Of a stretch of DNA of 64,000 nt, positions 8,940-58,378 are shown piece after piece. Under the pieces are notes generated by a model that was not told where the DNA came from, searched no databases, and saw nothing but the letters and a program-made list of their open reading frames with translations. Origin of the DNA: Chlorobiota bacterium. Lineage in GTDB: Bacteria > Bacteroidota > Ignavibacteria > Kapaibacteriales > UBA961. The stretch is from assembly GCA_014191195.1 (NCBI GenBank), contig BJGZ01000004.1, positions 1 to 64,000 of the forward strand. The letters are read 5' to 3'. The stretch's first letter is position 1. Every line of letters begins with the position of its first letter. The translations under genes and the position numbers were made by a program.

Positions 8940-8970
8940 TTTGATAGTATAGTAAGTTTCTTTATTTTTG
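8940..8970 (+). promoter_or_regulatory. rplS promoter, Bacteroidota-type
   Basis: TTTG at 8940-8943, a 19-base spacer, and TATTTTTG at 8963-8970 match the TTTG / TAnnTTTG (-33/-7) consensus known for Bacteroidota. Transcription should start about 7 bases downstream, giving a leader of roughly 30 bases with the ribosome site AGGAGA (about 8999-9004) before the ATG at 9010. Confidence 0.7.
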
Positions 8971-9009: not shown

Positions 9010-9390
9010 ATGTCTAAAATATTGCTTGTAGAGCAAAAGTATGTTCAGGCTGCCACTGATTTTCGCAATCTAAAGAACGAATCAGGGAAGTTTGAAATGC
9101 CTGATTTCCGTCCAGGTGATACAGTTATTATTGCTGTACGTGTTATTGAAGGTGAGAAAGAGCGTATTCAGAATTTCCAAGGTATTGTATTAGCTCGCCG
9201 TGGTTCTGGAATTAATGCTACTTTTCGTGTTCGTAAAATTTCTAATGGTGTTGGTGTAGAGCGTATATTTCCATTATTTTCGCCTATCATCTCAGGTATA
9301 GAAGTAATTAAGCGTGGTTCTGTTCGTAGAGCTAAGTTATATTATTTACGTGGCATGAGTGAGCGTAAGATTCGCGCTAAAACATCATAG
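9010..9390 (+). CDS. rplS: 50S ribosomal protein L19
   Basis: L19 sits at the interface of the two ribosomal subunits. The protein has 126 residues, near the usual 115-120. Family signatures are [22 protein letters not shown], the [15 protein letters not shown] block, the [22 protein letters not shown] block and the tail [10 protein letters not shown]. It has its own promoter and its own terminator, so it is not in the common rpsP-rimM-trmD-rplS order; those neighbours are absent here. Confidence 0.99.
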
Positions 9391-13964: not shown

Positions 13965-14110
13965 GTATGAAGAATATTGAATGAAAGAGATTTTTAAAAA
14001 ATCTTATGCAAAAATAAGAAGTTCATATTAAATCTGAATTATTGGACGGCCTTACAGTGATATTAACTTAAAGATCTGAAAAAACTAATACCAAACAGTG
14101 ACCTTACATA

Positions 14111-20948: not shown

Positions 20949-21389
20949 TTAAAAGAAATCCTCTTCTTGTCCAGGTGCATCAAGTAGAAAATCATCATCA
21001 TCTAAATCTGTATTTTCATCAAATGCAAGATTATCACCTTCAAATTCATCTTCAGAAACCCAATTTCCAGAAGCATAATCATCATTCATTGCATCTTCTA
21101 GCTGTTGCATATATGTTTCGTTTTCAAATAATCCTATGGATCTATCTGCGAATTTTTGGGCATCAACAGCATTACAAGACCACACGGCTGTTTTCATACC
21201 ATCATCCGGTTTTTTTCCGTCTAATATCAAAGACTTTACAGTTTCATTATTAGTAACAGTTGATGTAGCTCCACTGTCTGCATTTGTTGCTCTTATTTCA
21301 AATGTTGAAGTAGGCTTTGTAGAAGACCAAATAACATCGAAATAATAAAAATCTCCTTCAAAACTGCGAATCTGTTGTTTCTGTTGCAT
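20949..21389 (-). CDS. Hypothetical protein with acidic C-terminal tail
   Basis: I do not recognise this 146-residue protein. Residues 1-95 look like a compact alpha/beta domain with alternating hydrophobic residues (DFYYFDVIWSS, TFEIRATNAD, KTAVWSCNAVDAQKFADRSIGLF) and no signal peptide. The last ~45 residues are very acidic, with an Asp-rich run (DLDDDDFLLD) and a terminal EEDFF. Acidic tails ending in aromatic residues occur in proteins that dock to single-strand-DNA-handling or RNA polymerase partners, but that is only an analogy. A TATTTTTG element upstream (minus strand, about 21435-21430 region) could be its -7 box. It is the first gene of the run that continues with the helicase. Confidence 0.75.
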   Translation of the reverse strand: MQQKQQIRSFEGDFYYFDVIWSSTKPTSTFEIRATNADSGATSTVTNNETVKSLILDGKKPDDGMKTAVWSCNAVDAQKFADRSIGLFENETYMQQLEDAMNDDYASGNWVSEDEFEGDNLAFDENTDLDDDDFLLDAPGQEEDFF

Positions 21390-21471
21390 GTAAAGTTAAA
21401 TAATGTGAAAAGTGAATAATTGAGGGGCAAAAATACTAAAATTTTATATTCATTCTGTCGATGAAAGCTGA

Positions 21472-23270: not shown

Positions 23271-23501
23271 TTACTTGGATTTTGCCTTCATTTCAAGCAT
23301 CATCGCTGTATAACCTTTTTTGTCTAAAGTACGTAAAGCACGAGTTGTAATTTTAACAGTTACAAATTTACCTTGTTCGGCAACCCAAACTCGCTTCTTC
23401 TGAAGGTTAGGTAAAAATCTTCTACGTGTACGATTATTAGCATGAGATACATTGTTTCCGTATTGAACGGTTGTACCAGTTAATTCACAAACTTTTGACA
23501 T
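23271..23501 (-). CDS. rpmB: 50S ribosomal protein L28
   Basis: A 76-residue L28, usual length. It starts MSKVCELTGTTVQYGNNVSHANN, the family signature with the single Cys, and continues with RTRRRFLPNLQKKRVWV and the TTRALRTLDKKG block. Genes for L33 (rpmG), often next to rpmB, are not found here. It has its own exact TTTG-N20-TAnnTTTG promoter and its own terminator, so it is monocistronic. Confidence 0.98.
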   Translation of the reverse strand: MSKVCELTGTTVQYGNNVSHANNRTRRRFLPNLQKKRVWVAEQGKFVTVKITTRALRTLDKKGYTAMMLEMKAKSK

Positions 23502-23553: not shown

Positions 23554-23585
23554 CAAATATAGATTGTTGATGTAAAATAGCCAAA
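23554..23585 (-). promoter_or_regulatory. rpmB promoter, Bacteroidota-type
   Basis: On the minus strand TTTG (23585-23582), a spacer of exactly 20 bases, then TATATTTG (23561-23554). The start codon is at 23501, giving a leader of about 45 bases. Confidence 0.75.
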
Positions 23586-40431: not shown

Positions 40432-41469
40432 TTAATCCATCCAACCTTTACGTTTAAAATAATGAAGCATATATGCACTGAGCATGATAATAATCATCCA
40501 AAATGCATAATAGCCATAGCGCCATTCTAATTCAGGAAAGAATTTAAAATTCATTCCATAAATACTTGATAAAAATGTAAGTGGAAGGAATATAGTAGAA
40601 ATAACTGTTAGAACTTTCATTACTTGATTCATTCTATTAGAATTCACAGATAGATATGCATCTAAAAGCCCTGCAATACTTTCTCTATATGCTTCAACTA
40701 AATCTGAAACTCTTACAAGATGATCATATGCATTTCTATAATACAGGATTTCTTCAGAGGAAATAAGAGAAAACTCCCCTCGAGCAAGCCTATTAAGGAT
40801 TTCTCTTTGATAGGTGGTGATTTTTCTAAAACTTATTATTCCTTTCTTTAGACTTAATATTTTGGAAAGTGTTGCGGCTTGATAATTTTGAAAAATAGTA
40901 AGTTCAAGTTCGTCTATTTGATCTTCAAAAAATTCAATAACTGGGTTTAAATTATCAACAATATTATCTAAAATAATATGAAATAAGAAATCAGGACCTT
41001 TGCTTAATGTTAGCGGACTTTTTTCAATTAATTCTAGGACAGAATTAATACTTGTAGAGGATTCATAATGATGAGTTATCAACCAATTGGGACCAAGAAA
41101 AGTATTGAGCTGTCTAGTTGGAAAACTAAAATGAAGAAGTGGATCTGTATGCGTTTTTATCTGTTTTTTATGAATTAATGGTATATCCAAAGGATTGAAA
41201 ATGATAAAAAGATAATCGAAATAATCTTCAACTTTTGGATAATGATCTTTTATTTGTGGACTATTTCTTTCTTTTGTACAATCTTCTATTGCCAATGGAT
41301 GTAATGAAAAGCATTCAGTAAAAATAAGGGTTTCTTCTGATGGTTCAGGATTAAATAGATCTATCCATACCATCGAAGATGCAAATTCATCACTTGTGCA
41401 AAAATCTTGCAAATGGCTGATATCTAGTGTTTTACAAACATGATTCGAATACACATTAATACTAATCAT
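40432..41469 (-). CDS. corA: CorA-type magnesium/cobalt transporter
   Basis: A 345-residue CorA-family divalent cation channel. The soluble N-terminal domain is followed by the long stalk helix (about 195-285) and two C-terminal membrane helices (about 290-310 and 320-340). The signature loop YGMNF lies between them, the selectivity filter of the pentamer. The protein ends with a basic tail (FKRKGWMD). It follows ruvA by three bases, so it is translated from the same message. Confidence 0.94.
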   Translation of the reverse strand: MISINVYSNHVCKTLDISHLQDFCTSDEFASSMVWIDLFNPEPSEETLIFTECFSLHPLAIEDCTKERNSPQIKDHYPKVEDYFDYLFIIFNPLDIPLIHKKQIKTHTDPLLHFSFPTRQLNTFLGPNWLITHHYESSTSINSVLELIEKSPLTLSKGPDFLFHIILDNIVDNLNPVIEFFEDQIDELELTIFQNYQAATLSKILSLKKGIISFRKITTYQREILNRLARGEFSLISSEEILYYRNAYDHLVRVSDLVEAYRESIAGLLDAYLSVNSNRMNQVMKVLTVISTIFLPLTFLSSIYGMNFKFFPELEWRYGYYAFWMIIIMLSAYMLHYFKRKGWMD

Positions 41470-43455: not shown

Positions 43456-43487
43456 TTTGAATGTTCGATTCATGTTTGGTAACTTTA
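43456..43487 (+). promoter_or_regulatory. Promoter of the Asp-box propeller gene
   Basis: TTTG (43456-43459), 20 bases, then TAACTTTA (43480-43487): the Bacteroidota pattern with one mismatch in the last base. This places transcription start near 43494 and excludes the earliest in-frame start at 43461. Confidence 0.6.
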
Positions 43488-43586: not shown

Positions 43587-46500
43587 ATGAAATCTTCATT
43601 CTACTTTATTTTTTGCTTATTGGCAGTTTCTTTTCTGTCAAATCCATTACTATCTTCAAGAGAAAAAGAAAGAGAAGGCAGTCCATTCGATAGATGGAAA
43701 GCTTTTCACAATCAAAGGGCTTTCCCTTTTGGTGAAATTCCAACAGATGCTATGAAAAAAGCGCATGGCAAAGTGCAAAGAATGATTGAGCAAAAGGGTG
43801 GCGCGCAAGTACTTTCTAAACAACCTCAATGGGAATTAATGGGACCCAAAAATGTTGGTGGTAGGATTAGATCTATTGCTTTGCACCCAACAAAACCAGA
43901 TTGGGTATATATTGGTGCAGCAAATGGAGGTATTTGGCGTACTACTAATGCTGGTGAAAACTGGGAACCGTTAATGGACTTTGAAAATTCAAGTTCAATG
44001 GGACAAGTTGAGATAGATCATCAAAATCCATCTATTATTTATGCTGCAACCGGCGAAGATCGTGGTGGAAGTTATGGTTATCCTGGTTCTGGTATTTATA
44101 GATCTGTAGATGAAGGTAAAACGTGGGCAATCATAGGATTATCCAATGTTGGTTCTTTTAATGCATTCAAAGTTCATCCTCTTAATTCTAGTTTACTTTT
44201 TGCCGGTGGTGCAAATGCTAATCCTGGATTTTATAGATCAGTTAATGGTGGTGCAAATTGGCAAAGAACATTCTTGTATTCTGTAAGCGATATATCAATA
44301 AATCCAAAAAATCAAGACGAAGTATTTTTAGCATCGCCAGGAAATGGAATTTTTCGTTCTAGTGATGCTGGCCAAACTTGGACAGATTGCAATGTTATGC
44401 AGCCTGCAGATTATGGCTATGTAAAAATAGATCAATCCATTTCTAATCCATCAATTTTGTATGCCTTAATAGAAGGTTCTGCTGATAAATTGGGATATAT
44501 CTATAAATCTACCGATTCAGGAAAAGAGTGGATAATCATCCATGAAACTGATGTTACTTTTTTTAATGGACAAGGTAGCTATGATATCTACATATCGATT
44601 CATCCTACTAATCCTGATATCGTTCTTGCAGGTGGCATAGATGTGTATAGGACTTCTGATGGTGGAAAAAAGTGGGAAAATCAAACAAGAGTATATACTG
44701 GTGGAGATAATCATCCAGACCAACATTGCGCAGTGTTCTTACCTTCTAATCCAGATATAGTATATGCTGGAAATGATGGTGGAATGATGAAAAGCGAAGA
44801 TGCCGGCCTAACATTTACACCAATTAATTCCCAATTAGCAATAACTCAGTATCATGCTTTTGCTATCGATCAATCTCAATCTAAAATGAGTTATGGCGGT
44901 GCTCAAGATAATGGAACAACATCTATATTATCTGAAACATATGGAGATATTGTTGGAGGAGATGGAGGATTTACTTTAGTAGATCAAGTAAATCCAAATA
45001 CAGTATATGCTACCACGCAAAATGGAAATATGTACAAAGTTCAAGTTAATACAAGACAAGTTAGCGGCATTACTACAGGAATTCCAACTTCGGATGAAGG
45101 ATTATTTATCTCTCCGATTTCTATGGACCCGCAAGATACAAAGACCATTTATCATGGTAGACATACAGTATATCAGTCTACAAATCAAGGTGCAAAGTGG
45201 ATTGCAATTTCACCAAAATTCACAAATAGAGTCTCTTATATCGGAGTTTCTCCTTTAAGACCCGAATATATTGCTGCTGGAACAGAAAAAGGCGATGTAT
45301 TTATAACAGCAGATATGGGCGAAAAATGGGTGAATGTGACTCAAAATGGTCTCCCTACTCGTTATATAACTGATATTGAATTTTCTAGATTATCAGAGAA
45401 TACATTATATGTAACCCTTTCTGGATCATATACTTCCCATGTATATAAGTCAACAGATTTGGGTGCATCATGGAAAAATATCAGTGAACCATTACCTGAT
45501 ATTTCTGCAAATGCAATTGCATTATATCCCGAAAACGAGAATATACTTTTTGTTGGTACTGATATTGGTGTTTTTGGAACATATAATGGTGGGGAAACAT
45601 GGTTTCCTTTTGGAATCGGATTTCCAAATACATCTGTGTTAGACATGGGAATTTATGAAGGCAGAGGCGCAGCCACAGATCCTATCAGTTTAAGGGTTGC
45701 TACTCATGGACGTGCTATTTGGGAAGTTTCTATTCCAGAAGATATTGTTCAAACTGCTGAAATTGTCAATCCTATTGGTGGTGAAAATTATCTATCGGGT
45801 TCTAATGAAAGAATATCTTGGTATGGATTTACTCCTCCAGTTAAAGTTGAATATTCTATTAATAATGGCGAAACATGGAATATTATAGCAGATAAAACAA
45901 ATGGTAATGATGTCCGCTGGAATATTCCAAGTAGATTTACTTATACAGGTAGAATTCGTATTAGCTCTATTGGTGATCCTTCACAATCAAGAATAACAAG
46001 AACTTTTACTATCAGTGAATTAAGAAAAGGTTCATTAACGCAAGCATCTGCTGTTGCTCATTTGCCTTATGGTTTATGCTATGATGGAAAAGATGGTTTA
46101 TGGACTACCAGTTTTAATGATAATTATTTATATAAACTGAATTCAAAATCATTGGTGATTGAAAAGAAAATGCAAATTAGCCAAGGTGATAGTTTATTTG
46201 CTGATTTCACAATGGATAGATCACGTTATGTATTTTATATTCATAAGCTGAATAGTACCCAAGGTGATGGTGGTAAAATATTAGAAGTTGATACTACAGG
46301 TAAAATTTTGCGATCATTTACCACTCCAGCCAAAAAATATGGATTGGGCCTAGAATTAGTAGATGGAAAATTAATAGCAACCGAGCGTGATGGATCCAGA
46401 CTGATGTATATTATTAATCTTGAAACAGGCTTAACAGAAACTACAAGTCCAAATCCTTTTCAACTAACATATGGTCCTAGATGTCTTGCCTATGATGGTG

Positions 46501-48196: not shown

Positions 48197-50659
48197 TCAA
48201 AAATAAATAGGGAATTGTTGAGGTGATGCTTCATTCATCATAGAATACACTTTTTCGAATACATGCTCTGCCTCTGCCTTAGACCAATAATTTCCATCAG
48301 TTCCATATGCTGGCCTATGTGCATTTGAAGTTAATGTCTCTGGTTTACTATCTAGATATTTATAACCATCCTGTAATTCAATAACTTGTTGCATCATATA
48401 TGAAGTAGTACCGCCTGGAACATCTTCATCAAAAAATAGAATACGATTTGTCTTTTTTAAGGATTCCCCGATGATACCATATCTATCAAAGGGCAATAAT
48501 GTTTGTACATCAATAATTTCTACAGAAATACCAATATGTTGTAGTTGTTCAGCAGCTTCCATAGCTATACGACAACATGCCCCATAGGTAACAAGCGTAA
48601 GGTCATTTCCTTTTCTTAGCACTTCAGGAACACCTAAAGGAACAGTATATTCGCCCATATTTGATGGCAAACTTTCTTTAAGCCTATATCCATTAAGCAC
48701 TTCCACAATTAAGCCAGGTTCATCAGATTGTAATAATGTAGTGTACATTCCAGCTGCTTGTGTCATATTTCTTGGTACACAAACATAAATTCCACGAACT
48801 AAGTGAATAATACCAGCCATTGGGCTGCCACTATGCCAAATTCCCTCTAAACGATGTCCTCTTGTTCTTATAATTGCAGGAGCTTTTTGTCCTCCTTTTG
48901 TTCGCCATTGAACAGTAGCCAAATCATCGCTCATCAATTGCAAAGCATAAAGGATATAATCTAAATATTGAATTTCTAGAATTGGCCTTAGGCCGCGCAT
49001 TGCTAAGCCGATGCCTTGTCCTAAAATGGTAGCTTCACGTATTCCAGTATCAGAAACTCTCAGTTTCCCATATTTGGCTTGCAAACCTGAAAATCCTTGA
49101 TTTACATCACCTAAATGTCCTACATCTTCACCAAAAGCAATGATTTTTGGATCTTTGCTAAAATGGAAATCAAAACAAGCATTCATGATTTCCGAACCAT
49201 TTACAGATAGAGAATCTTCTGAATAAACAGCTTGAATATGTGGAACTTGTAATGCCGAAAGAGAACTTTCACTATGTAAATAACTTGAATATCTATCTAT
49301 TTGTAAAAGATCACAAGACTTTTTCCAATTGATTAAAGCACTTCTCATTTCTGCTGGAAGATTTCTTGAAGCATATAGCACTTTATGAATACAACTAAAA
49401 ATATCTCTTCGGAATGGTTCACGAATAGCAAGTAACTGAGAATTAAGAGCTAATAATTCTTGAGAAAGAGTGATATCATTACATTGAGTAGCAATAGATT
49501 CAATAATCATAGAAACCTGCTGAATATCAAGTTTTATTGGGTCTTGATATTCTTTCCATGCTTCATCTTTCCATCGTTTGACACGTATTATAGCTTGTTT
49601 TTCTATTTCTTCTGTTTGTTCAAGAGTGATAATAGATTGATTGATCAACCATTGCTTCATTCTGGATATTCCATCAAAATCCTGTTCCCATTGCAAGCGT
49701 TCTTTGGATTTATATCGTTCATGGCTACCAGAGGTAGAATGTCCTTGTGGCTGGGTAACTTCAATTACATGAATCAATTGCGGAATATGCTCAGTTCTTG
49801 CAGTATACGCTGCTTTTTGATAGGTTTCAATCAATGCAGGATAATCCCAAGCTTTAACTGTATGGATATCAAATCCATCTTTAGAGCCATTCTCTCTTTG
49901 AAATCCCGATAATAAAGTACCTACATTTGACTTAGTCATTTGCAGTTCATTTGGTACCGATATTCCATAACCATCATCCCAAATAGAAATAATTGCTGGA
50001 GCATGTAATACTCCAATTGCATTTACTGATTCCCAAAACATACCTTCAGCTGCGCTGGCATTACCAATTGTACCCCATGCTATTTCATTGCCATTCCTGC
50101 TAAAATCAGTAAGGTTTTGTAATTCTTCTAATTCTCTATACAGTGTAGAAGCATACGCTAAACCAACCAATCTGGGCATTTGTGAGCCAGTTGGAGAAAT
50201 ATCTGCCGAGGAATTATATTGTTCGGTTAATGATTTCCAAGAGCCATCTGGATGAAGAGATCTTGTTCCAAAATGACCATTCATAGAGCGTCCCGCAGAA
50301 GAAGGTTCTGCTTGAACATCAGGATGAGCATATAATTGTGCAAAAAACTCTTTGATTGACGATGCACCTTTACTGAACATAAAGGTTTGATCACGATAAT
50401 AGCCAGATCTAAAATCTCCTTTTTGGAAAGCCCTTGCCCATGCTAATTGAGGTATTTCTTTTCCGTCTCCAAAAATGCCGAATTTAGCTTTGCCTGAAAG
50501 AACTTCTTTTCTGCCCAGTATGCTGGCTTGTCTACTTTCTACAGCCAGTACAAAATCCTTTATGATTTCTTCAGCAGAAAAAGGTATGGAAGATATATCT
50601 TGTTGATTCTTATTACTTGATTTTTTGGTGACAGATGTATTGCTTATACGAGATTTCAT
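48197..50659 (-). CDS. Fused alpha-beta E1 component of a 2-oxoacid dehydrogenase complex
   Basis: An 820-residue protein joining both E1 chains that decarboxylate a 2-oxoacid with thiamine diphosphate and acetylate lipoyl-E2. The alpha half (about 30-420) has MNGHFGTRS, the TPP-binding GTIGNASAAEGMFWESVNAIG with IWDDGYGISVP, and the phosphorylation-loop-like GHSTSGSHERYKSKERL. The beta half (about 475-815) starts EIMNACFDFHF and has FGEDVGHLGDVNQGF, EIQYLDYILYALQ and the final DEDVPGGTTSYMMQ. Branched-chain 2-oxoacids are the likeliest substrate, as in other Bacteroidota fusions, but pyruvate cannot be excluded. E2 and E3 are not in the window. It has an exact promoter and terminator of its own. 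Confidence 0.9.
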   Translation of the reverse strand: MKSRISNTSVTKKSSNKNQQDISSIPFSAEEIIKDFVLAVESRQASILGRKEVLSGKAKFGIFGDGKEIPQLAWARAFQKGDFRSGYYRDQTFMFSKGASSIKEFFAQLYAHPDVQAEPSSAGRSMNGHFGTRSLHPDGSWKSLTEQYNSSADISPTGSQMPRLVGLAYASTLYRELEELQNLTDFSRNGNEIAWGTIGNASAAEGMFWESVNAIGVLHAPAIISIWDDGYGISVPNELQMTKSNVGTLLSGFQRENGSKDGFDIHTVKAWDYPALIETYQKAAYTARTEHIPQLIHVIEVTQPQGHSTSGSHERYKSKERLQWEQDFDGISRMKQWLINQSIITLEQTEEIEKQAIIRVKRWKDEAWKEYQDPIKLDIQQVSMIIESIATQCNDITLSQELLALNSQLLAIREPFRRDIFSCIHKVLYASRNLPAEMRSALINWKKSCDLLQIDRYSSYLHSESSLSALQVPHIQAVYSEDSLSVNGSEIMNACFDFHFSKDPKIIAFGEDVGHLGDVNQGFSGLQAKYGKLRVSDTGIREATILGQGIGLAMRGLRPILEIQYLDYILYALQLMSDDLATVQWRTKGGQKAPAIIRTRGHRLEGIWHSGSPMAGIIHLVRGIYVCVPRNMTQAAGMYTTLLQSDEPGLIVEVLNGYRLKESLPSNMGEYTVPLGVPEVLRKGNDLTLVTYGACCRIAMEAAEQLQHIGISVEIIDVQTLLPFDRYGIIGESLKKTNRILFFDEDVPGGTTSYMMQQVIELQDGYKYLDSKPETLTSNAHRPAYGTDGNYWSKAEAEHVFEKVYSMMNEASPQQFPIYF

Positions 50660-50717: not shown

Positions 50718-50749
50718 CAAAAATAACTCCAAACCTAACCAATACCAAA
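50718..50749 (-). promoter_or_regulatory. Promoter of the fused E1 gene, Bacteroidota-type
   Basis: On the minus strand TTTG (50749-50746), exactly 20 bases, then TATTTTTG (50725-50718). The start codon at 50659 leaves a leader of about 50 bases. Confidence 0.75.
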
Positions 50750-50903: not shown

Positions 50904-50935
50904 TTTGCTTAGAAAAACATGAAGCACTATCTTTG
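50904..50935 (+). promoter_or_regulatory. tRNA-Leu promoter, Bacteroidota-type
   Basis: TTTG (50904-50907), exactly 20 bases, then TATCTTTG (50928-50935), 15 bases before the mature tRNA 5' end. This is the clearest -33/-7 pair with a stable RNA product. Confidence 0.8.
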
Positions 50936-50950
50936 CTTTCCCTTATAACT

Positions 50951-51034
50951 GCGGAAGTGGCGAAACTGGCAGACGCACCATCTTGAGGGGGTGGCGCCTT
51001 AATTGGTGTACGGGTTCAAGTCCCGTCTTCCGCA
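50951..51034 (+). tRNA. tRNA-Leu (anticodon GAG)
   Basis: The acceptor stem GCGGAAG (50951-50957) pairs with CTTCCGC (51027-51033), with discriminator A51034. The D-arm contains GGCGAAACTGGCAGACGC. The anticodon stem CCATC/GGTGG closes a loop TTGAGGG, giving anticodon GAG for CUC and CUU codons. A long variable arm (CGCC/GGTG) marks a class II tRNA, and the T-arm is ACGGG-TTCAAGT-CCCGT. The CCA end is not encoded: the bases after the discriminator are CAA. Confidence 0.97.
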
Positions 51035-52927: not shown

Positions 52928-53184
52928 TGATTCTGAGTATCTCTGTTATATAATAAATGTAAAATTCTACATGCAAAAATACAAATCCACTGTGAATACA
53001 TACATTCTAAAAATCTTAGTTTATTTAATGGTAAATTTCTGTATTTTTCTAATAGGAAAAGGGTATTCAAAAGATTGAAACTTTCAGTATTCTTTTAGTG
53101 TCTTTACTAAATCAGATTGTTCTTGGAACATTCCTATATAGTCAATGGTTATATTTTAAAAGTCATTCTCTCCCTATACTCTAT

Positions 53185-58220: not shown

Positions 58221-58378
58221 AATGTGACTGTTTAATCAAAAAAAACGATGTGCAAAGATACATAATCAAATGTTTAAAATATTGTTAACTGAAGGATATA
58301 TTTGTGTATAACTTTACGATAATTAAACATCCTCAAAAGTGTATTTTGTATTATTAATTATTAAGCAAATTTCCTTAT

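Follow-up and report, generated by a model that had tools for sequence, protein, structure and literature searches.

The region upstream of rplS in a Chlorobiota bacterium carries two elements that resemble the promoter of Bacteroidota, which raises the question whether this promoter type is used in a lineage outside Bacteroidia. Bacteroidota are well known for an odd promoter and for a scarcity of Shine-Dalgarno (SD) sequences, and it is because of the promoter that foreign genes often stay silent in them. The sigma factor of Bacteroidetes was reportedly described in 2005. In the sections available of four papers the promoter type with TTTG at -33 and TAnnTTTG at -7 is established for Bacteroidota (PMC6847099, PMC9723704, PMC7366714, PMC12632263). 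In the open-access literature, which leaves aside preprints and most subscription papers, we found no promoter study of Kapaibacteria or Ignavibacteria. From the sequences analyzed here, the Kapaibacteria lineage very probably uses Bacteroidota-type promoters of about the form TTTG-N19/20-GTAHHTTTGC, rich in G at -13, and the known promoter type is thereby very probably extended to a separate bacterial branch.

Motif sites in the 64-kb window

The window, i.e. the whole stretch of 64,000 nucleotides that was analyzed, contains six exact matches to TTTGN{18,22}TANNTTTG on both strands. The first-pass annotation had named five sites of this pattern. Four of them are exact with the spacers it gave, the one ahead of the propeller gene has one mismatch, and its gene labels were upheld (Table 1). 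The other two exact matches, with N18 (40861-40890) and N21 (49897-49929), lie antisense within ORFs, and restricting the scan to N19/20 left exactly the four named sites, all between ORFs. The ORF after the rplS site is L19 (TIGR01024) and ORF 23271-23501 after the rpmB site is L28 (TIGR00009), while the 820-residue ORF matches E1 alpha and E1 beta models, both below the curated cut-offs. The propeller site is the weakest among the five, and its mismatch affects G-5, which carries more information than any other column in a matrix trained later (2.31 bits). The probable start of this gene is the in-frame ATG at 43587, and not position 43461, where the longest ORF begins.

Table 1. Predicted sigma-A promoters and -7 elements in the window (matrix scores are from the matrix trained without the window)
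Feature	Position	Strand	Elements	Remarks
rplS, predicted sigma-A promoter	8940..8970	+	TTTG-N19-TATTTTTG	39 nt to ATG at 9010; score 14.4
rpmB, predicted sigma-A promoter	23554..23585	-	TTTG-N20-TATATTTG	52 nt to start
Fused E1 alpha/beta, predicted sigma-A promoter	50718..50749	-	TTTG-N20-TATTTTTGCA	58 nt to start; score 19.5
tRNA-Leu(gag), predicted sigma-A promoter	50904..50935	+	TTTG-N20-TATCTTTGC	tRNA at 50951
T9SS-secreted propeller gene, weak candidate	43456..43487	+	TTTG-N20-TAACTTTA	one mismatch at G-5
ORF 20949-21389, predicted -7 element	21428..21435	-	GTATTTTTGC	score 13.1; no good -33 match
Asparaginase-like gene, predicted -7 element	52974..52981	-	GTATTTTTGC	score 13.5; no good -33 match
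CDF cation transporter gene, predicted -7 element	58253..58260	-	GTATCTTTGC	score 12.6; no good -33 match
Phosphoglycerate kinase gene, predicted -7 element	14009..14016	-	TTATTTTTGC	score 11.8; no good -33 match

The count in the window is unremarkable, as 25 of 100 shuffles reached six matches (shuffle mean 3.93). Everything therefore depends on the rest of the genome, and an excess emerged only when more of the genome and the location of the sites were considered. With the window excluded from its training, a two-block matrix scored at least 11 in six of the 31 window gaps, compared to a mean of 0.65 and a maximum of 2 in 20 shuffles. The E1 promoter was the top of all scored gaps, followed by that of rplS. 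Among the genes behind predicted -7 elements, the transporter matches TIGR01297 over the cut-off and the asparaginase-like gene matches asparaginase models below it. The sole NCBIfam model for the phosphoglycerate kinase ORF is PRK13962, in its kinase part only and below cut-off, and ORF 20949-21389 had no NCBIfam match at E 1e-10.

Enrichment, spacing and placement of the motif

We sampled 864 kb of the genome (800 kb plus the window), in which a simple longest-ORF caller set the gene starts; with ORFs of at least 80 aa this gave 389 upstream gaps of at least 40 nt. Among 9,908 gapped words of 2+4 letters seen at least eight times upstream, GTnnnTTTG ranked first and TAnnTTTG second, and TAnnTTTG also ranked second of 22,573 when rare words were included. 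In the 207 gaps between genes on the same strand (tandem gaps) it occurred 53 times in sense, 13 times in antisense and 19 times reversed (p = 3.6e-7). The same pipeline yielded sense to antisense ratios of 41:10 in Cytophagia, 45:9 in Flavobacteriia and 18:4 in Bacteroidales as positive controls, and 0:1 in E. coli, where 50 kb with 15 tandem gaps are too small a sample to weigh. The groups of named loci were drawn from the best 80 of 593 relatives, of which 70 were used and 10 belonged to no promoter group. An exact TAnnTTTG is present in 124 of the 389 upstream regions, so that the majority lack one, and an exact TTTG at N19/20 accompanies it in 11 regions; the -33 element is thus often absent. 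Within 160 nt upstream of the genome's own rpoD no exact motif was found.

Of the patterns that the first-pass annotation had proposed to compare, TAnnTTTG was enriched upstream of genes and TATAAT was not. That the genome uses ordinary TTGACA/TATAAT sigma-70 promoters and carries the motif incidentally has a practically negligible probability. TATAAT words are indeed plentiful in the AT-rich intergenic DNA (78 in sense in the 389 regions), but in tandem gaps they show no sense excess (39 sense, 38 antisense), they rank 9,424 of the 9,908 upstream words, and TTGACA-N16-18-TATAAT occurs in none of the 389 regions. TTGACA and TATAAT gave nothing as competing elements.

The distance between the two elements was similarly distinctive. 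TTTG precedes TAnnTTTG five times at N19 and seven times at N20, compared to 22 times over 26 other spacers (p = 2.4e-7), and the shorter TTG does so 11 and 14 times, respectively. In G109, a genome from another family of the same order, TTTG was found four times at N19 and 14 times at N20 vs nine times at other spacers. The peak is sharper than in pooled Bacteroidia, in which six matches at each of the two spacers stand against 48 over the others.

The 114 sites of this genome also hold information in columns that the search had left unfixed. G is found at -13 in 45% of them (z 9.9), T prevails at -10/-9 and A at -3, and further preferences are A at -18/-19 and G at -32. At -4, C (38%) and T (42%) make up a pyrimidine after the G, while G itself is rare at -9 (4%, z -2.9) but at -10 its 11% lies close to the background of 13.8%. 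Pooled Bacteroidia (148 sites) have C-4, A-3 and the A stretch in common, with G-13 at 21% over a background of 16.5%. Within our genome G-13 precedes TAnnTTTG in 57 of 137 upstream cases vs 78 of 502 coding cases.

Moreover, the sites are located where promoters are expected. Although 93% of the sampled DNA lies inside ORFs, 22 of the 32 exact N19/20 matches in the 864 kb are intergenic and 18 of these 22 face an ORF start. For 24 other spacers only 33 of 181 matches are intergenic (odds ratio 9.9, p = 2.7e-8). Sixteen tRNA genes were sampled, one of which, the second in a cluster, was left out. TAnnTTTG lies in sense at most 110 nt upstream of 13 of the remaining 15, compared to two in antisense and one downstream, and nine of the 15 have a TTG at N19/20. 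In Bacteroidia the corresponding numbers are 21 of 28 tRNAs upstream in sense, six in antisense and three downstream.

These data bear on the view that the motif is a by-product of the AT-rich composition of intergenic DNA together with a T-rich strand bias. It would account for a window count within the range of the shuffles, and T-rich words are strand-biased too, two of them slightly more than TAnnTTTG. Nevertheless, we consider it highly improbable, as TA..TTTG was the highest of eight anagrams, and the 19/20 spacer peak, the excess of these spacers in all but one of the 24 genomes from the order, the placement at tRNAs and the information in unfixed columns all speak against it. The suggestion of the first-pass annotation that this lineage uses the promoter type of the Bacteroidota sigma factor is well supported by word rank, strand bias, spacing, location, tRNAs and the held-out matrix.

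The primary sigma factor and the proposed mechanism

The genome encodes eight proteins with sigma-70 region 2 matches, of which a protein of 286 aa was taken as the primary sigma. Its residues 16-285 align to residues 122-389 of a 390-residue SigA. Together with its length this indicates that the N-terminal part is missing, which we take to be region 1.1. We infer, with high confidence, that these sites act as promoters for an RNA polymerase holoenzyme containing this single primary sigma, which is of the sigma-ABfr type without region 1.1. Since there are eight region 2 matches, the sites could instead serve an alternative (ECF) sigma or a transcription factor, with housekeeping promoters of a different kind. 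This is very improbable because the motif lies ahead of 13 of the 15 tRNA genes and of genes for ribosomal proteins, leads the words found upstream and meets no competing TATAAT signal.

If the primary sigma reads these sites, contacts can be proposed from what is known of sigma-70 in general. Region 4.2 would hold the upstream element, TT(T)G, and, 19-20 bp further downstream, T-12 and A-11 would be gripped by regions 2.3-2.4, whereupon the DNA would open. The melted TTTG at -8 to -5 would then be held in pockets of regions 1.2 to 2.3, and transcription would start 4-5 nt past the -7 element. The E. coli sigma-70 promoter (TTGACA-N17-TATAAT) likewise has two elements, T-12, A-11 and a TTG in its upstream element, but its words, its spacing and its bases at -8 to -5 differ, and TATAAT is not enriched here. 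The first-pass annotation had expected starts about 7 bases after TAnnTTTG; in Flavobacterium johnsoniae many starts lie 4 or 5 nt after the -7 element and not about 7, according to the part of the study available (PMC6847099). Compared to the Bacteroidota sigma-A of B. fragilis, B. thetaiotaomicron and Flavobacterium, as far as the accessible parts of the papers describe it, the TAnnTTTG core and the TTTG 19-20 bp upstream are alike, as are the few G at -9, the C/T at -4 and the A at -18/-19 (PMC6847099, PMC12632263) and the short sigma without room for region 1.1 (PMC6847099, PMC7366714, PMC12632263). Differences are the host outside Bacteroidia, the preferred G at -13 and a weak SD-like G peak.

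Among the best 80 of 593 relatives, the primary sigma is 92-93% identical to those of two Candidatus Kapaibacterium MAGs and UBA2373, 80% to that of the Ignavibacteria MAG L044, mostly 77% to Hymenobacter and about 68% to Flavobacteriaceae. In a sigma tree of 108 rows, from which second copies of sigma and 25 nearly duplicate rows had been removed, it falls among the Kapaibacterium rows. These are separated from a group of 44 rows, almost all of them from Bacteroidia (support 95/64; 100/97 for 43 of the rows). The rows labelled Kapa do not form a single clade in the strict sense, as the long-branch L079 and L178 fall among them, and L229, a second copy from one Kapa member, is unlabelled in the tree. 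The MAG L049 is titled Bifidobacterium breve and has its sigma among the Cytophagales-side rows, so that probably either the contig or the label is in error. Three genomes (G019, G093 and G263 of families f8, f11 and f17) carry two sigma genes each, which are 71-82% identical to the primary sigma of our genome.

The region 2.3-2.4 consensus is identical in Kapaibacteria, Ignavibacteria, Balneolia and Chlorobia rows, nearly identical in Bacteroidia and slightly different in low-identity rows. L440, Q441, N455 and G458 (E. coli numbering) are common to all row groups including our sigma; the region 2.4 residues of Bacteroidota are thus not discriminating, since Chlorobia, Balneolia and low-identity rows have them too. 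The rows compared include the apparent non-users of the motif, G063, G005 and G300. Region 2.4 was therefore rejected as a predictor of the promoter type, and as region 2.3-2.4 cannot separate users from apparent non-users, the specificity for TTTG may lie elsewhere. In the sigma-A of Kapaibacteria three residues are inserted close to the beginning of region 2.1 (about residues 43-46 of our sigma, L031:1009-1869), and the sigma consensus of the other groups lacks this insertion. Conservation of the rpoD promoter was also rejected as uninformative, with an exact TAnnTTTG in five of 12 upstream regions of Kapaibacteria and none of five class-mates; the rpoD upstream regions of L163 and L041 are identical and evidently come from one genome.

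Spread of the promoter type and the Shine-Dalgarno signal

For 296 genomes of the phylum, matches at N19/20 (on-spacer) were compared with codon-phase-matched off-spacers N25/26, a genome-wide count that is insensitive and whose baseline is shifted by coding sequence. Off-spacers N24-27 were dropped both for a codon phase that differs from that of N19/20 and for a coverage of only 213 of the 296 genomes, with 16 of 64 in f24. Counts of the reversed pattern were given up as the main control, since coding sequence may use TTTG and GTTT unequally. In the own order, which we take to be Kapaibacteriales with families f1-f6, we observed 2,214 on-spacer vs 1,278 off-spacer matches, with an excess in 23 of 24 genomes. 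The other families of the class had 3,066 vs 3,029 (excess in 29 of 49 genomes), with a deficit in f8 (1,297 vs 1,509) and an excess in f15 (169 vs 103). Beyond the class, f46 (322 vs 157), f23 (855 vs 556) and f25 (725 vs 539) showed an excess, and f28, taken as Flavobacteriaceae and thus as known users, almost none (3,893 vs 3,776; 15 of 29 genomes). The family f30, taken as Balneolaceae, had a deficit of 1,357 vs 2,126, with on exceeding off in one of 35 genomes, perhaps due to coding periodicity. The assignments of f28 and f30 are based on the Zobellia and L080 genomes, whose counts are equal to those of G182 and G046, respectively, and the sigma tree is consistent with both. The FMO protein was found in representatives of f24, f22, f37 and f49 (six of 26 genomes positive, counting that of L086), and these families were therefore taken as Chlorobia and f24 as Chlorobiaceae.

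Sense to antisense counts of TAnnTTTG upstream of genes were 32:6 in G109 of the own order and 30:6 in G267 of the own class, and nine named loci on the Ignavibacteria side had 11 in sense and five in antisense. No upstream enrichment was found in the samples of the Ignavibacteria genome G300 (3:3), the Chloroherpetonaceae genome G005 (8:7) and the Chlorobiaceae genome G063 (0:2 in 64 tandem gaps). Nonetheless, f24 shows a spacing excess of 1,106 vs 799, with on exceeding off in 55 of 64 genomes, and the full motif occurs at one of four Chlorobiaceae tRNAs. Only one sense and no antisense match was seen in 25 tandem gaps of G101, a genome of the own order with a GC content of 56%, and the samples were too thin to weigh for Balneolia (4:0 in 21 gaps), Calditrichota (2:0 in 12) and the pooled low-identity group (3:1 in 60).

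It had been suggested that the sites help to date the promoter type. The data bear this out in part. A shared origin before Bacteroidia split from the Kapaibacteria/Ignavibacteria side fits, but the distribution looks patchy, as G063, G005 and G300 lack enrichment with nearly the same sigma region 2.3-2.4. Since users and these apparent non-users are interleaved, Kapaibacteria and Bacteroidia could have gained TAnnTTTG independently from a shared sigma and not by inheritance. We regard this as unlikely, though it deserves consideration: the -7 core and the 19/20 spacing are the same and the flanks similar, G267 of the same class is positive, and the spacing excess of Chlorobiaceae is maybe a remnant. 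A single gain with losses requires fewer coincidences.

SD sequences were counted as AGGA, GGAG or GAGG at -18 to -4 before ATG, with the complement as control (given in brackets). They preceded 56 of 394 starts in our genome (11), 17 of 67 in G109 (0), 10 of 46 in G101 (1) and 18 of 108 in G267 (2), and the signal was strong in G300 of Ignavibacteria with 25 of 60 (0). For Chlorobiaceae, Chloroherpetonaceae and Balneolia the values were 11 of 88 (7), 11 of 105 (2) and 7 of 34 (2), and for Flavobacteriia, Bacteroidales and Cytophagia 17 of 198 (4), 5 of 41 (1) and 9 of 238 (20), compared to 11 of 29 (0) in E. coli. The share in our genome (14%) is little above those of Flavobacteriia (9%) and Bacteroidales (12%). 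A clearer sign of SD than the four-letter count is a peak of G at -12 to -8 before the start, which reaches 16-26% vs 9% further upstream in our genome and is similar in G109. The corresponding values are 11-13% vs 16% in Cytophagia and 10-15% vs 11% in Flavobacteriia. A weak SD-like G peak is thus retained in the own order. Published values, probably as percent of genes with SD, are 32 for Ignavibacteria and 13 for Chlorobia in the available part of a table, with examples from Bacteroidia at 2 percent (PMC10783764).

Since a weak SD signal persists, promoter type and SD scarcity, both hallmarks of expression in Bacteroidota, may differ in their histories, and our data suggest but fall short of proving a possible separation of promoter type, sigma sequence and SD loss. 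Tentatively, Kapaibacteria might represent an intermediate stage in which TAnnTTTG with an added G-13 is established and SD only partly decayed. The DNA-reading surface of sigma-A would then predate the promoter change, as region 2.3-2.4 is almost unchanged in lineages that show no TAnnTTTG enrichment, and TTTG specificity would be set elsewhere, e.g. in region 1.2/2.1 or the core polymerase. We consider this scenario possible but doubtful. If true, a sister branch with the promoter and SD remnants separates both traits and serves as an outgroup for dating each. Moreover, the promoter rule could be used for annotating or expressing Kapaibacteria genes, and a near-identical region 2.3-2.4 in users and apparent non-users makes the part of the polymerase that reads TTTG testable.

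The share of G-13 differs between lineages, with values that include chance matches as they were taken among all exact N19/20 matches. It amounts to 548 of 1,246 in f1, f2, f3, f5 and f6 and to 154 of 968 in f4. Elsewhere we counted 30 of 193 in G154, 31 of 133 in G230, 26 of 189 in G238, 26 of 127 in G017, 13 of 177 in G126, 26 of 109 in G267, 16 of 112 in G212, 14 of 62 in G125 and 13 of 58 in G280. As G318 (54 of 176), G251 (37 of 107) and G133 (20 of 55) reach 31-36%, G-13 is strongest in the own order and not exclusive to it.
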